Shown here piece by piece: positions 12,854 to 49,702 of a DNA stretch of 64,000 nt (the first letter of the stretch is position 1; each line of letters begins with the position of its first letter). Below the pieces are notes generated by a model that saw nothing but the letters and a program-made list of their open reading frames with translations, did no database searches and was not told where the DNA came from. This DNA comes from Haloarcula salinisoli (GTDB lineage: Archaea; Halobacteriota; Halobacteria; Halobacteriales; Haloarculaceae): contig NZ_RKLQ01000002.1 in the NCBI RefSeq assembly GCF_019599405.1, forward strand, positions 820,052 to 884,051, given 5' to 3'. The position numbers and the translations under genes are program-made.

Positions 12854-13388
12854 CACCCGTCAGGAAGGACTACTTGTCTATTGTTATCGCCGCGTTGTCG
12901 GTCACCGGCCCCGCGGAGAGCCCCGATAAGCTCGGCTTGCCGTCGGACTGTAACGTTTACCTTAGCTTGAACCGATTTGGAGTGCCAGAAAACCCCACCC
13001 GTGCCGGCTGGTCAACCAGGGGACGGGAGGGACTGAAAGGGGCGTTCGCGGGTGGCACAGCCGCCCGCGAGCTCGGGAGACCTTTGGTCTCCCGGCGGCT
13101 GGCTGAACGAAGGCGGACGAAGTAAGCACCGGAGGCCGAAGGCCGAGGAGCGCAGCGAGGTCGTTCGAGAGAGCGAACCTCTCTCGTGATGACGAAAGAC
13201 GGCGCCGCCGTCTTTCGAACCACCTCCGAGTTCAGCCAGGGCGAGAGCATAGCTCTCGCGGGCAATCGGAAGCTTCGCTTCCGAGGACAGCCGGGGCTTT
13301 CTGGCTGTTCGAACTCGAAGACTCCTAACTAAACACAATCCGGCGTGCTGGGGAAAGGTGTTAATCCCCGGCTACCGTGGGTGGCTGT
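12854..13388. repeat. Gene-free gap with a long mini-hairpin array
   Basis: About 530 nt between a minus-strand gene and a plus-strand gene. At least five strong inverted repeats: 13075-13093 (GGGAGACC-ttt-GGTCTCCC), 13166-13186 (CGAGAGA, 7-nt loop, TCTCTCG), 13194-13216 (GAAAGACGGC-gcc-GCCGTCTTTC), 13241-13259 (GCGAGAGC-ata-GCTCTCGC) and 13266-13284 (TCGGAAGC-ttc-GCTTCCGA). Most have 8-10 nt arms and a 3-nt loop. Open frames here are compositional artefacts. The last 70 nt presumably hold the promoter of the HerA-like gene. Confidence 0.75.
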
Positions 13389-44543: not shown

Positions 44544-46181
44544 TCAGTCGGTCGAGACCGGCTGCCCACCGGGGGAGTACCCCGCCGTCTCGTCGGCCGC
44601 CGTCTCGAACTGCGAGAGCTCCTCGCGCATCGTCCCCGCGTCAGTGGCAAACGACGAGACGTCGTCGACCATCTCGCCGAGCGTGGCGTCTTGCTGGGCG
44701 GCGGCAGAGGCGACGTCGTCGGCGACCGAGGCGGTCTCAGTCGCTATCTCACCGACGTCGTCGACGAGCCCGACGACCTCCTGTGTGGTCTCGGCCTGCC
44801 GGTCGGTCGCGCGGTCGACCTCCTGGATGCTGTCGTTTATCTCGACGGTGGCGTCGACCACGTCCTCGAGCGTGGTTATCGTCTCGGAGACGGTGTCACT
44901 CCCCTGGTCGACCGCGGACTCCATCTCGCTCATGGCGTCGACGGAGTCGCCAACCTGCGAGCGCATAGAGTCGATGAGCGCCTCCACGTCGCCGGTGGCC
45001 TCCTGTGTCTCGCTGGCGAGTTGCTTGATCTCGTCGGCGACGACCGCGAACCCCTCGCCGGCCGCACCGGCGCGGGCGGCCTCGATAGAGGCGTTCAGCG
45101 CCAGCATGTTCGTCTCCTCGGCGATACGGTCGATGACGTCGACGATCTCGGCCATGTCCTCGGCGATGGTGTCGAGCTGTCGGACCTCCCCGGCGGCGCT
45201 CATCGACTGGTGTCGAATCTCGTCGACGGCGCTCTGTGCCGCCGACGAGGTGCGCTGTGCGTCCCGTCCCAGTTCGGCGGCGGTGCCGCTGTGCTCGGCT
45301 ATCTCGGTGACCGACGAGGCCATCTCCTCGACGGTCGCGGAGAGGTCGCTCAGTTCGTCGGCTGCCTCGTCGAGCTGCCGTCGTTGGGTCTCCGTGTTGT
45401 CCGATATCGACCCGACCCGCTCGGTGACCGTCCGCGTCTCGGTCCGGAGCTGTGCCCCCTGGTCGGCGACGCGGTCGCTCTCGTCGGCGATGCGCCGCGA
45501 GACCGACTGTCCGCGGCCGATAGTTCGTTCGAGCGCGTCGAGGGTCTCGTTTATCGCCGCGCCGACCGCCGCCATCGCCTCGCTCGTGCTGTCGGCGTCG
45601 ACGCGGGCCGTCAGGTCGCCGTCGGCGGCCGCCGATAAAGCGTCCCGGTAGTCCGTGGCCTTCTGTTCGAGGTGGTCCGAGAGCGCTTCCAACTCGGTGC
45701 GCTCGCGCTCGGCGTCTCGCTGGGCCGCCTCGGCGTCCTTTCGCGCCGCGTCCGAGTCGGACTGTGCGCGGTTCGCCTCGGCGAGGGACTCGCCCAGCGA
45801 ACGGGCCGTCCGTTCGAGCGTGTCGTAGGTCTCGCCGATTTCGTCGACCCGGTCGACGCCGAAGTCGATGTCGTAGTCGCCGCCGTCGACGGCGGTAGCT
45901 TTCTCGTTGATCTCGATTATCGCGCGGTACAGCTCGCAGTACCCCAGGAATCCGGTACAGAGCACGATGAAGGCAGCGAACGTGACGGCAGGGAGCGCGT
46001 CGGTAAACAGCACGGCAGCGATAGCGGGACCGACGAACACGGAGACGAACGCCAGGAGGAACAGCCGGACGCCGAAGTCCCTGCGGAGCGGTTCGGGGAG
46101 GTACGGCTCTGTAGCCATGGGAATCGCGCCGATACTGACGAGCAAGCGACCGACGAGCCGGTCATCGGCCGTTCCGGTCAT
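44544..46181 (-). CDS. Methyl-accepting chemotaxis transducer (Htr type)
   Basis: 545 residues. A GGAGG lies seven bases before ATG 46181, which favours this start over ATG 46118. Two hydrophobic helices near residues 38-78 are followed by a HAMP-like region ([36 protein letters not shown]), a second coiled segment with [15 protein letters not shown], and the signalling hairpin [37 protein letters not shown] near residue 380. The external sensor between the helices is nearly absent, so it probably senses cytoplasmic or membrane signals. No che genes are nearby. Confidence 0.9.
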
Positions 46182-46313
46182 CTTGGCCCTCCAATGTAAT
46201 TCACGGCGAACGACGACAAGCGCTGCCAGGGTGACAGGTCAGACATACCCGAACGGACGGAATCGGGCGTGAAAAGCTACCAGACCCGGTTATCAGGAGT
46301 GAAATTGTCCGGC

Positions 46314-47501
46314 TCAGTTCGTCGTCGTAATCTCGACCACGTCGCGGTGGTCCAGTTCGGTGTCCGCGCCGATCTGGCGCTGGGAGCGCACGTCGTGGGC
46401 GTGGAGGAACCCGTCGCCGATGTCGGTGTGGAGGAAGTAGGCGAAATCCTCGGCCGTCGACCCGTCGGGGAGGACGAAACAGTCCTGCAGGAAGGTACCG
46501 TCCTCCTGTGGCTTGCGCGCGCCGGGGAAGACGGCAATCGCGTCGAGTTCCTCGAACAGCGCGGTCTCTAAGGCCTGCTGGACGCCGGTGCCGTCGAAGG
46601 ACGTGACGAAGTCGCGAATCTGTTCGAGCCCTGCGGCCTTTGCCTCGGGGAGGTCCGCCGTCACCTCGAAGTCGGTGTCGCCGGGGCGGTAGTCGAGCAC
46701 GTCCTGCTCGGCGCCGTTCTTGAGGGCTTTCTCGGCGTGAGCCGAGACGGGGACGAAGGTCAGGTGTTCGTAGTCGGGGTCCTCGGTCACGGTCTCCCAG
46801 TTGTCCTGTGCGGCCTCGGTGTCCATCTTGTTGGCCGCGATGACCATCGGCTTGGTGCGGATGCGAATCTCGCGGGCGAGCTCGAAGCGGTCGTCGTCGT
46901 CCCACGCGTCGGGGTCCAGTTCGAGGTCGAGCGAGAGGATGACCTGCTTGATCTCGTCCTCGTTTATTTTGAACGCCGAGAGCTGTTCCGCGAGGTCGAC
47001 CTCGATATCGCCGTCCTCCCCGTGGTAGCCCGAGCGGTACCGCTCGATACCCTTCTCTAAGACGTCCAGATACCACATGTCGAGTTCGTTCTCCAGGAAG
47101 TCGATGTCCTCGCGTGGGTCGTGGTCCTCGGTCGGCTCGCCTTCCAGGTCCGTCTCGCCGGTGAAGTCGACGACGTGGATGAGCACGTCGGCCTCGTTGA
47201 GGTCCGAGAGGAACTGGTTGCCCAGTCCTTTCCCTTCGTGGGCACCGGGAACCAGCCCGGCAACGTCGACCAGTTTCGTCGGGACGAACCGCACCCCGTC
47301 CTCGCAGTAGCCGTGGTTGGGGGTACAGCTGTGCTCGAACTCCGGGGCCGCACAGTCGACACGGACGTAGGCCTCGCCCATCGACGGGTCGATAGTCGTG
47401 AACGGATACGCGCCCTCCGGCACGTCGTTCATCGTCGCCGCGTTGAAGAAGGTGGACTTGCCGACAGAGGGCTTGCCGACGAGTCCGATCTTGTAGCTCA
47501 T
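46314..47501 (-). CDS. ychF: Obg-family GTP-binding protein YchF
   Basis: 395 residues. G1 [16 protein letters not shown]2 region [17 protein letters not shown]3 [21 protein letters not shown] and a C-terminal TGS-like region ([17 protein letters not shown]). The archaeal YchF/OLA1 group; it binds ribosomes and hydrolyses ATP or GTP. Codon 1 is at 47501. Part of this gene and its upstream sequence exists again at 47597-47842 as a broken copy. Confidence 0.93.
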
Positions 47502-47596
47502 TGGGGGATAGAACGCGAAGAGGGGCTAAAGGATTGTCAAATGGAGCGAGAGCGCGTGAGAGTCGCAACCACACCAACTCTGCTACGGGTAAAACG
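47502..47596. promoter_or_regulatory. Promoter region of intact ychF
   Basis: Minus-strand promoter. CCTTTAGCC at 47525-47533 lies about 24-32 nt before the start at 47501. The first 65 nt of this region are repeated, with a few changes, upstream of the broken copy at 47781-47842, so promoter and 5' end were duplicated together. Confidence 0.5.
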
Positions 47597-47842
47597 CGTC
47601 GTTCATCGTCGCCGTCGCAAAATCGTTATGCGATTTTGCGGCTCGTCAGAGCGCTGCTCTGACGGCAGCGTTGAAGAAGGTGGACTTGCCGACAGAGGGT
47701 GAGCGAACCGGAGGTTCGCGATCCTCGTCGGACCGCAGGTCCGACGGCGGCTTGCCGACGAGTCCGATCTTGTAGCTCATTGGGGGATAGAACGCGAAGA
47801 GAGGCGAAAGGATTGCCAAACCGAGCGAGAGCGCGTGAAAGT
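47597..47842 (-). pseudogene. Broken copy of ychF promoter and 5' end, interrupted by hairpin inserts
   Basis: The copy starts with ATG 47780 ([11 protein letters not shown]) and lacks everything past residue 27. It is interrupted twice relative to the intact gene: after 47750 on this strand by 51 nt (47699-47749) inside the Walker A region, and at 47615-47668 by 54 nt after NAA. Both inserts are multiples of three; the second contains a stop near 47646. Each insert holds two hairpins: GCGAACC-gga-GGTTCGC (47703-47719) and GTCGGACC-gca-GGTCCGAC (47728-47746); CGCAAAATCG...CGATTTTGCG (47616-47640) and CGTCAGAGC-gct-GCTCTGACG (47644-47664). Not functional as a GTPase. Confidence 0.8.
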
Positions 47843-47903
47843 GCCACACACGGCAGTTGCTGGTCGGACCATCTCCGCCCGTAGCGCCCCGCCGTTTAGC
47901 CAT

Positions 47904-47912
47904 TATAAATAA
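47904..47912 (+). promoter_or_regulatory. TATA box of the small membrane gene
   Basis: TATAAATAA at 47904-47912 lies about 35-42 nt before ATG 47946. No other candidate is present in the gap. Confidence 0.5.
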
Positions 47913-47945
47913 GGTGCATTGGCACATATACCATCATTACCCACT

Positions 47946-48194
47946 ATGGACCAACAGCTGTTCGACGAGACGGAGACCGGTGCCCGCCGGAGCGTCCTCT
48001 TCGCTATCACCGTCGCGACCGGGGCGCTCTGTTTCGTGTCGGCGACCTCGGTCGTCGTCAGCGGCGCCAGCACGGTCTGGGCGCTGCCGCTGGCTGCCCT
48101 CGGCATCGGCGTGCTCGTCTTCGGCGGCTATCTCCAGCAGGGCCACTTCGAGGAACTGGTCGAGGACGACGAGTTCCTCTGGCAGCAAAACTGA
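47946..48194 (+). CDS. Small two-helix membrane protein
   Basis: 82 residues from ATG 47946 (MDQQLFDETETGARRSVLFA); a start 27 nt upstream is in frame but closer to the TATA box. Two hydrophobic helices, residues about 18-40 and 46-66, then a charged tail HFEELVEDDEFLWQQN. Not recognised. A promoter of its own makes it a monocistronic gene. Confidence 0.65.
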   Translation: MDQQLFDETETGARRSVLFAITVATGALCFVSATSVVVSGASTVWALPLAALGIGVLVFGGYLQQGHFEELVEDDEFLWQQN

Positions 48195-48424
48195 GGCCGA
48201 ACCCGGCCGTCGCCGGCCATCGAACCCGAGTAGTCCGCGAACCGACAAGCGACCACTTGGTGGGTCCGATACCAGCTCCCGATAGTGGCGGGACTCTGCT
48301 CACGGCCCGTGAGCTATCGCGACGAGGGCCAACTCGTCGACGCAGTCCGTCGCCGTCACACTCGAGGTGGGGAGGGAAGTATTGAAACGTTCCGACCGAG
48401 TTGTTTATCTCAGAGAGCGACAGG
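48195..48424. other. Intergenic gap before FG-GAP lipoprotein
   Basis: 230 nt with no credible gene. GTTGTTTATCTCAG at about 48399-48412 is a TATA-like element 15-20 nt before the ATG at 48425, close but not convincing. Confidence 0.35.
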
Positions 48425-49702
48425 ATGGAACGAACGAGGCGCCAGCTCCTCGGCGCCGTCGGCCTCTCGAGTATCGGGCTGCTGGCGGGCTGTGTGGGCG
48501 GGCAGGGACGGACAGCGTGTGAGCCAGCCACCGATACGGACGGGGCCCCACCGAAGAACAAACTGTTTGGCCCCGACGGTAACACCGACGACAACTTCGG
48601 GAACGCCCTCGCGATGTCGGCGGACGGTTCGACCGCAATCGTCGGTGCCGAGCGGCGCGACCGCACGCCCACGGTCGAGGCCGGCGTCGCGTACGTGTTC
48701 GAGGTCGACGGCGAGACCGGAAGCGTGGCGGCCGAACTCACACCGGACGACAGAGAGTCGAGCATGGACTTCGGCGAGGCAGTCGCGGTTTCGGCGGACG
48801 GTTCGACCGCCGTCGTCGGTGCGAGCGGGGCGGGGAAGGCCTACGTCTTCGGTCGCTCAGGCGACGGCTGGAGTCAGGAAGCCGAACTCGGTCCGAGCGA
48901 CAGCGACGATGACAGTCTGGGGATGGCAGTCGGGATAGCGTCGGACGGTTCCACCGTCCTCGTGGGCGGGTTCTCTTCGACGGTCCCCGTGTTCCGACGA
49001 ACAGCGGCGGGGTGGACCCGGGAGCACAGTCTCAGCCCGCCAGCTGACGCGACGGGGAGCTGGTTCGGCGCGGAACTGGCCATCGACGGTGACGGCACCA
49101 GGGCACTCATCGCGAACAGCGAGGCACCGGGACCCGAGGGTCGTCGCGAGGGGGAAGTGTACGACTACAGGCTGACTGACGGGGCCCCGACACGTGGCGA
49201 GACACTACAGATGCCGCCCGCCGAATCCAGCGACCACTTCGGCATCAGCGTCGCGCTGTCGGACGACGGGACGACCGCGGTGATCGGCTCCGATCGAAAA
49301 ACCGACACGGGACCCCTTGTCGACCCGACAGCGCACGTGTTCGAGCACCGTCCCGACGGCTGGCGGCGTCTCGATAGCTTCGCCGCCGACGGGGATACCG
49401 CGTCGGGCTTCGCGACAGCAGTGGCCGTGTCCGCGGACGGCGACACGGCGTTGGTCGGTGGGCGGCTCCCGGACTCGGCGGACGGGACCCCGACGGCTGG
49501 CCCACAGCTGTTACACAGAACGGCCGATGGCTGGAGCGCAGTGAAAACGTTCACCCCGGACGACGAATCGCGGAGTTTCGGCACCCCGGTCGCCCTGGCT
49601 GGTGACGGGCGCACCGCGCTGGTCGGCGCCCGGGTGGACGACGGAGCCGACTGTCGGAGAGTCGGCGCAGCCTACGTGTTCGCCGTCCCGGCAGGACCGT
49701 AG
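48425..49702 (+). CDS. Tat-type lipoprotein with seven FG-GAP repeats
   Basis: 425 residues from ATG 48425. Signal RRQLLGAVGLSSIGLLAGC, then seven repeats with the pattern FGxxVAxSxDGxTAVVGA (for example FGEAVAVSADGSTAVVGA and FGTPVALAGDGRTALVGA). Seven repeats match a seven-bladed integrin-alpha-like beta-propeller (inference). An outer-surface binding protein. Its spacing to neighbours gives no operon. Confidence 0.82.
   Translation: MERTRRQLLGAVGLSSIGLLAGCVGGQGRTACEPATDTDGAPPKNKLFGPDGNTDDNFGNALAMSADGSTAIVGAERRDRTPTVEAGVAYVFEVDGETGSVAAELTPDDRESSMDFGEAVAVSADGSTAVVGASGAGKAYVFGRSGDGWSQEAELGPSDSDDDSLGMAVGIASDGSTVLVGGFSSTVPVFRRTAAGWTREHSLSPPADATGSWFGAELAIDGDGTRALIANSEAPGPEGRREGEVYDYRLTDGAPTRGETLQMPPAESSDHFGISVALSDDGTTAVIGSDRKTDTGPLVDPTAHVFEHRPDGWRRLDSFAADGDTASGFATAVAVSADGDTALVGGRLPDSADGTPTAGPQLLHRTADGWSAVKTFTPDDESRSFGTPVALAGDGRTALVGARVDDGADCRRVGAAYVFAVPAGP

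Follow-up and report, generated by a model that had tools for sequence, protein, structure and literature searches.

Double-hairpin inserts in a tandem ychF fragment of Haloarcula salinisoli as probable copies of a dispersed, apparently undescribed palindromic element of haloarchaea

Protein-coding palindromic elements have been reported in Rickettsia (RPE), Wolbachia, and Methanocaldococcus jannaschii (Ogata 2000, 2002, and 2005 and Suyama 2005, as cited in PMC2229807, PMC2996958, and PMC6649704). RPE are 105 to 146 nt long (PMC2229807) and have been described as losing their repeat identity over time (PMC6649704). The haloarchaeal elements analyzed here are similar to RPE in that they are short, dispersed palindromes without an enzyme of their own, found in intergenic DNA as well as in unrelated housekeeping genes, where they are inserted in frame. 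In contrast to RPE, they are 51 to 54 nt long and consist of two separate small hairpins, their triloops are hypervariable while the stems are kept by compensation, and the family extends across an archaeal order. We claim no sequence relation to RPE; by its dispersal and in-frame insertion the family is of the RPE-like kind, but by its length and plan it is not RPE proper.

Several other classes of short repeat have features in common with this family. PARCEL is also a palindromic coding repeat found across unrelated genomes and often in tandem, but it encodes a DUF285-type amphipathic repeat, which differs from the haloarchaeal product as judged from the peptide, and it has been reported as absent from archaeal genomes (PMC2996958). 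CGTC-tagged REPs, which are listed in five bacterial phyla, are small palindromes that contain CGTC, are often dimers of unlike hairpins, sometimes lie within open reading frames, and have no dedicated transposase (PMC3733652). However, CGTC is an unpaired end tag in those repeats, while in the haloarchaeal element it is base-paired with GACG in the stem of helix 2, so we rejected membership in this class. The nearest haloarchaeal elements are the PATEs and SMRs of Haloquadratum (PMC3119063). Like our family, PATEs encode no enzyme, have near-terminal palindromes, and produce no target duplication, and a 52-bp terminal-only form of PATE has been mentioned; PATEs resemble the ends of IS605-type elements, no member of our family was found beside the Y1 transposase gene of this genome, and most members are in coding genes. 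SMR-A elements are likewise short, with an enigmatic mobilization and no target duplication, but they are ~110 bp long, have terminal inverted repeats, and target PATE/IS605 palindromes. The inserts are also not MITEs, as their hairpins are internal rather than terminal inverted repeats and ≤2 bp are common to the junctions.

The stretch of DNA that we analyzed (the window) comprises 64,000 nt of H. salinisoli contig NZ_RKLQ01000002.1 (positions 820,052 to 884,051). It contains an intact ychF-type GTPase gene whose 5' end is present a second time, in diverged form, immediately upstream (Table 1). An earlier note on this DNA, made from the letters alone, had reported that the fragment differs from the intact gene by inserts of 51 and 54 nt, each made of two hairpins, with flanks that are contiguous in the intact gene. 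This description was confirmed, and the flanks are contiguous in relatives of the same genus as well. In four of these relatives (G002, which is Haloarcula rara, and G008, G010, and G025), a single ychF gene directly adjoins sequence orthologous to the right flank; there is no duplication and no insert, so that these loci carry the empty sequence at both insert places; the ychF bases are also contiguous at both places in the remaining same-genus loci that could be aligned. Contiguity of the P-loop, both in the intact copy and in the aligned relatives of the genus, supports the view that the hairpin pairs are insertions rather than losses from the intact gene.

Table 1. Features of the ychF locus (window coordinates)
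Feature	Coordinates	Strand	Details or basis
Intact ychF-type GTPase gene (Obg-like, YGR210-like subgroup, 395 aa)	46314..47501	-	Pfam YGR210-like_G4, MMR_HSR1, TGS
Promoter-side segment upstream of intact ychF, part of duplicated unit	47502..47579	-	Resembles ychF upstream DNA of relatives and the segment right of the fragment
Tandem ychF 5' fragment bearing both inserts (codons 1 to ~25 plus upstream DNA)	47597..47850	-	Alignments
Remnant ORF of ychF fragment (44 codons)	47646..47780	-	Stopped by TGA within insert 1; also found in this form in H. katesii
Insert 1 (54 nt, two perfect hairpins, related type)	47614..47667	+	R1 28.9 bits, R2 35.2 bits; six-genome comparison
Insert 1 hairpin a (10-bp stem), CGCAAAATCG-TTATG-CGATTTTGCG	47616..47640	+	Compensated changes in other species
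Insert 1 hairpin b (9-bp stem), CGTCAGAGC-GCT-GCTCTGACG	47644..47664	+	
Insert 2 (51 nt, two perfect hairpins, typical coding-type member, directly before GG)	47698..47748	+	R1 72.9 bits, R2 73 bits; junction
Insert 2 hairpin a (7-bp stem), GCGAACC-GGA-GGTTCGC	47703..47719	+	
Insert 2 hairpin b (9-bp stem), CGTCGGACC-GCA-GGTCCGACG	47726..47746	+	

The nearest relative of the intact gene is that of H. rara, with 92.2% identity over the full gene and a uniform level of identity along its length. The upstream side of the fragment is ancestral and orthologous to the same genome (88.9% over 90 bp). The DNA upstream of the intact copy scores slightly higher against G010 than against H. rara. An origin of the intact ychF in another species was considered, but the native character of the gene body led us to drop it.

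The two inserts differ in sequence from one another, as the earlier note had stated, though they have in common the two-hairpin plan and a second-hairpin motif, CGTCnGAnC nnn GnTCnGACG. Their boundaries are ambiguous by 1 nt for insert 1 and 2 nt for insert 2, and a search for target-site duplications found ≤2 bp (at most GG) common to the junction ends. The proposal that both inserts keep the reading frame was borne out in part. Both lengths are multiples of three, and insert 2 is open, although it splits the P-loop codons of the fragment; insert 1, in contrast, carries a TGA in the ychF frame, so the ychF frame is not kept open through it. A call that placed insert 1 (window position 47614) in a coding frame was an artifact of an antisense open reading frame over ychF. 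The fragment has lost its start codon in G442 and is decaying in G553, which weakens the case for a conserved regulatory upstream open reading frame.

We counted pairs of adjacent hairpins (stems of ≥7 bp, separated by ≤15 nt) in 400-kb stretches of two genomes. In 400 kb of this genome we found 34 such pairs, compared to 3 in one dinucleotide shuffle, and 400 kb of H. rara contained 25, compared to 2; thus, the pairs are not due to chance. The modal gap within a pair is 6 nt. BLAST searches with the inserts using short words returned mostly noise and one real homologue, and covariance models were used instead: a first model built from five sequences that include insert 2 and exclude insert 1 (R1), and a second built from 79 members (R2). 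R1 detected members in 50 of the 60 relatives, at most 36 in any one genome, and tandem arrays with a period of exactly 51 bp were frequent. R2 gave 45 matches at an E value of ≤0.01 in this genome (~27 of them at <1e-6), a count that includes opposite-strand echoes of the same palindrome. R2 was also run on 246 genomes from across the phylum: matches were present in 40 of the 56 listed haloarchaeal (Halobacteriales) genomes and in none of the ~190 others. The E values of both models are rough, the genome counts are lower bounds, and the samples are partly nonindependent.

When the exact second-hairpin pattern was sought across 84,980 species (257 Gb), 86 stretches were returned, almost all of them from named haloarchaea; the exceptions were two stretches from a metagenome-assembled genome labeled only Euryarchaeota and one from Nocardioides, which is probably a chance match. 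Viral contigs gave no match to the exact pattern, and a ychF search there gave none either. We found no description of this family in haloarchaea in the open-licence literature, which is weak evidence of novelty and allows for a description elsewhere. The suggestion in the earlier note of an undescribed class of mini-element stands in the form of a large family of ~51-letter double-hairpin inserts across salt-loving archaea that is, apparently, previously undescribed.

The same note had offered replication slippage as another possible source. Generation of the hairpins in place, by slippage or template switching within ychF, would suit their perfection and their position within a tandem duplication. 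However, ychF contains no source for the inserts, and the same modules occur in many genera, in unrelated genes and at dozens of sites that are not linked, a recurrence that deprives the slippage origin of support and makes it hardly credible.

Some members of the family lie in tandem. Two 51-nt homologues of insert 2 occur in tandem at the 3' end of one gene (G000:C2:940902-941005), and others are found at the 5' end; all are in frame, with the forms GGERPEGSRASSDQRSDGG, GGEPSETRRASSEPRSDGG, and GGESSGARRASSEPRSDGG. The host (G000:C2:940359-941015; L049, 359-1015) is a small membrane-protein gene, DUF4212-like as judged from its sequence, with tandem copies at its N- and C-terminal coding ends. 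Its H. rara ortholog has fewer family copies. Noncoding members are also present, including uncalled or intergenic members in this genome and the ychF fragment itself. In addition, R2 scored double hairpins that lie between genes at six loci of this genome (L237 to L239, L242, L243, and L246) and belong to other subtypes (such as AGTGAGCGAATC nnn GATTCGCGATCTGTGCAAGACC nnn GGTCTTGCA), which suggests a larger clan of haloarchaeal hairpin pairs. A separate cluster at window positions 13040 to 13300 contains five perfect hairpins and a tgatga spacer, and composite repeats of this kind (~250 bp, with a limited stem vocabulary and variable triloops) are present at G000:C2 696563-696708, 816897-817026, and 962552-962829 and also in H. 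rara.

The earlier note's claim that the hairpin pairs insert as modules is proven more cleanly at another site than at ychF. In a cysteine-desulfurase-like gene, 51 bp are present in H. rara only, while 15 other aligned loci are exactly empty and, in the rest of the genus, the match lengths equal that of the empty site. In the cysteine desulfurase alignment, the segment that holds this insert precedes the 'lvDavQs' motif. A site in TmcA is filled in G000 and G008 and empty in the other aligned genomes, apart from 18 extra bases in G001. These 18 bases (locus L150) fold into just one hairpin, which is of the second type; it may be a remnant, or a single hairpin may have been inserted. The TmcA locus occurs twice in two assemblies, near both contig ends (G002:C1 19573-20172 and 3004568-3005167; G014:C1 24565 and 3288380), and this looks like uncut terminal overlap.

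The junction of typical copies can be written N|GGTGAG...GACGGY|GG; insert 2 obeys this form and insert 1 does not, and the target rule (before GG) is weak. The nearest nonorthologous copy was in the same genus at a fraction of 0.35, compared to 0.11 after permutation (maximum of 0.275 in 300), in agreement with copying within lineages. We saw no two copies so nearly identical as to mark a recent donor and its recipient. A mobilizing enzyme was not found: the sole Y1_Tnp gene (G000:C2:385885) has no R2 match in its 3.4-kb locus, which includes ~1.5 kb on each side.

Within host genes, the family has a strong preference for one strand and frame. With a heuristic frame caller that uses only the codon usage of the flanks, 51 of 60 callable sites among R1 members, in 26 of 33 distinct host clusters, were in this orientation, as were 67 of 75 sites, in 35 of 39 host clusters, in an independent sample selected by pattern. 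Host genes are open through the insert in the favored frame, and each copy adds 17 residues (GGE-PSxARRxSSE-x-RSDGG). Two reverse-strand frames of the element are equally stop-free, yet they are almost unused. A null expectation from GACGGYGG target frequencies places ~36% of copies in the favored frame, giving P values of ~6e-7 and ~4e-12 for the observed bias. Selection against the other frames is the likely cause, and target choice could contribute as well. Ten hosts with diverse Pfam assignments encode a major facilitator superfamily (MFS) protein, a P-type ATPase, TmcA, a class-V aminotransferase, SdhA, a Cys/Met PLP enzyme, an argininosuccinate-type lyase, an Amt/P-II protein, a member of the TrpRS/TyrRS family, and an ABC ATPase.

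The coding-type consensus is near GGTGAGCCGAGCGAAGCGAGGCGAGCCTCGTCGGAnCnnnGnTCCGACGGY. Among 79 aligned members, changes on both sides were found in 15 of 16 pairs, with 212 double-change cells compared to 61 in shuffles, and pairing reached 96% in helix 2 and 76% in helix 1; these figures lean towards the structure, since the model that defines it was also used to make the alignment. The two most variable pairs of helix 2 join wobble positions of two codons, and in the 52 indel-free members tested these were Watson-Crick in 47, compared to 27 and 17 expected if the positions were independent. TCA and TCT, which are rare serine codons here (9 to 10%), are nevertheless found as matched partners. 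The highest entropies are at loop positions, so that the triloops are hypervariable while the stems covary.

These observations bear on two further explanations. If a hydrophilic linker were tolerated or favored in halophilic proteins, the peptide could be what is selected, with the palindrome as a by-product of its codons. A single frame, a single peptide, and tandem expansion at N- and C-terminal tails are in keeping with this proposal, but synonymous wobble pairs covary, stems are conserved in the noncoding ychF fragment, and other frames are open too, and we regard selection of the peptide as very improbable. Alternatively, the hairpin pairs might be kept as regulatory structures in RNA or DNA (terminators, attenuators, or processing sites), with their spread being secondary. 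The strong compensatory pairing, which extends to synonymous positions and to the pseudogene fragment, and the intergenic location of some members of the same model agree with a role of this type. However, most high-scoring copies are in coding regions of unrelated genes, some in tandem, and have no consistent regulatory position, and a scan of the ychF region (46000 to 49000) against Rfam gave no match at the gathering score. A regulatory function is thus an unlikely reason for the persistence of these hairpins. The concatenated insert peptide had no match in PHROGs.

A pattern scan revealed that Halomicrobium katesii has both inserts at the same two ychF nucleotides, in a 5' fragment that adjoins an intact gene. 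When 392 genomes of the order were searched, most lacked insert 1, but four more (G553, G442, G430, and G572) had it at the identical ychF nucleotide, so that with H. katesii five haloarchaeal genomes other than this one carry it there. In G553 and G442 (family f7), the fragment bearing insert 1 adjoins an intact ychF; in G430 there is a fragment only; and in G572 the ychF gene that carries the insert is a frame-broken pseudogene. The window-type ychF therefore seems dispensable in G430, where it is absent, and in G572, where it is broken. A second ychF-family paralog, 46 to 47% identical, is found in G389, G553, G430, G442, and G572.

Between Haloarcula and Halomicrobium, only 2 of 70 stem letters of the ychF inserts differ (a single compensated pair), compared to 15 of 35 other letters (P = 5e-7). 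In five aligned copies of insert 1, two of them in decaying fragments, 1 of 95 pairs is non-Watson-Crick and three pairs have changed in a compensated way. Since the stems stay paired even in decaying fragments, the palindromes are kept without coding selection. The loops of insert 1 in G572 (TTC) and G430 (GAA) are reverse complements, as if the loop had been flipped.

As both inserts are common to another genus, the locus gives no direct evidence of recent insertion here: in this respect the earlier reading of ychF as direct evidence needs qualification, in that the inserts are insertions but not fresh ones in this strain. Either they are older than this strain or a ychF allele brought them along, and they were probably gained by descent or transfer of such an allele rather than made anew. 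For the local history we lean slightly towards the view that the inserts never entered this fragment and that an insert-bearing ychF allele moved between haloarchaea by recombination, so that an intact ychF now sits beside its 5' remnant. The identical insertion nucleotides in the genomes named above point this way, as do the loss or breakage of the window-type gene in G430 and G572 and the confinement of the insert 1 hairpin pair to ychF in 2.3 Mb of examined sequence. Because G430 and G572 belong to different families and nevertheless have nearly the same insert 1, transfer of one allele is favored over recurrent site-specific insertion. Against such a transfer, the start region of the fragment matches the own ychF of each genome, a match that only concerted evolution or separate duplications would explain; the insert is absent from most of the sampled genomes of the order; and the body of the intact gene in the window is closest to that of H. 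rara throughout. Movement of an allele is compatible with a real family and alters only the origin of these two copies.

A more tentative reading, which we consider possible but doubtful, is that an active haloarchaeal system copies the double hairpins and keeps the palindromes perfect at the DNA level, through a folding-dependent enzyme or palindrome correction, whatever they encode. On this reading, triloops would be free to drift, and stems would change only pair by pair, in decaying pseudogenes as well. Codon 20/21 of ychF would then be a recurrent, site-specific target in several lineages, with a tandem 5' duplication leaving an intact gene.

Taken as a whole, we put at roughly 77% the probability that the inserts are copies of a dispersed, nonautonomous haloarchaeal double-hairpin element, marked by modular insertion, use of one coding frame, and retention of its stems, and presumed to spread in trans. 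We propose that a trans-acting enzyme copies the element to new sites, with a folded single strand as its simplest form in transit, and that selection would mostly purge copies that lie in another frame or disrupt the protein. Surviving genic copies would encode the hydrophilic GGE...RSDGG peptide because the others are mostly removed, and the stop-bearing insert 1 and the P-loop-splitting insert 2 could persist because this filter is off in a redundant ychF fragment. The perfection of the stems may result from a folding requirement of mobility or from palindrome correction by intrastrand template switching.

If this explanation is true, an archaeal order has its own widespread in-frame coding palindromes. 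Such palindromes, known mostly in bacteria that live within cells and in a single methanogen, would thereby extend to free-living and partly genetically tractable archaea. Genes for TmcA, succinate dehydrogenase, an argininosuccinate-lyase-like protein, and aminoacyl-tRNA synthetases would have gained a standard 17-residue insert. For annotation, such inserts resemble lineage-specific indels in alignments. The different behavior of stems and loops makes the upkeep of perfect mobile palindromes directly testable, and the family would offer a natural test of how palindromes spread.
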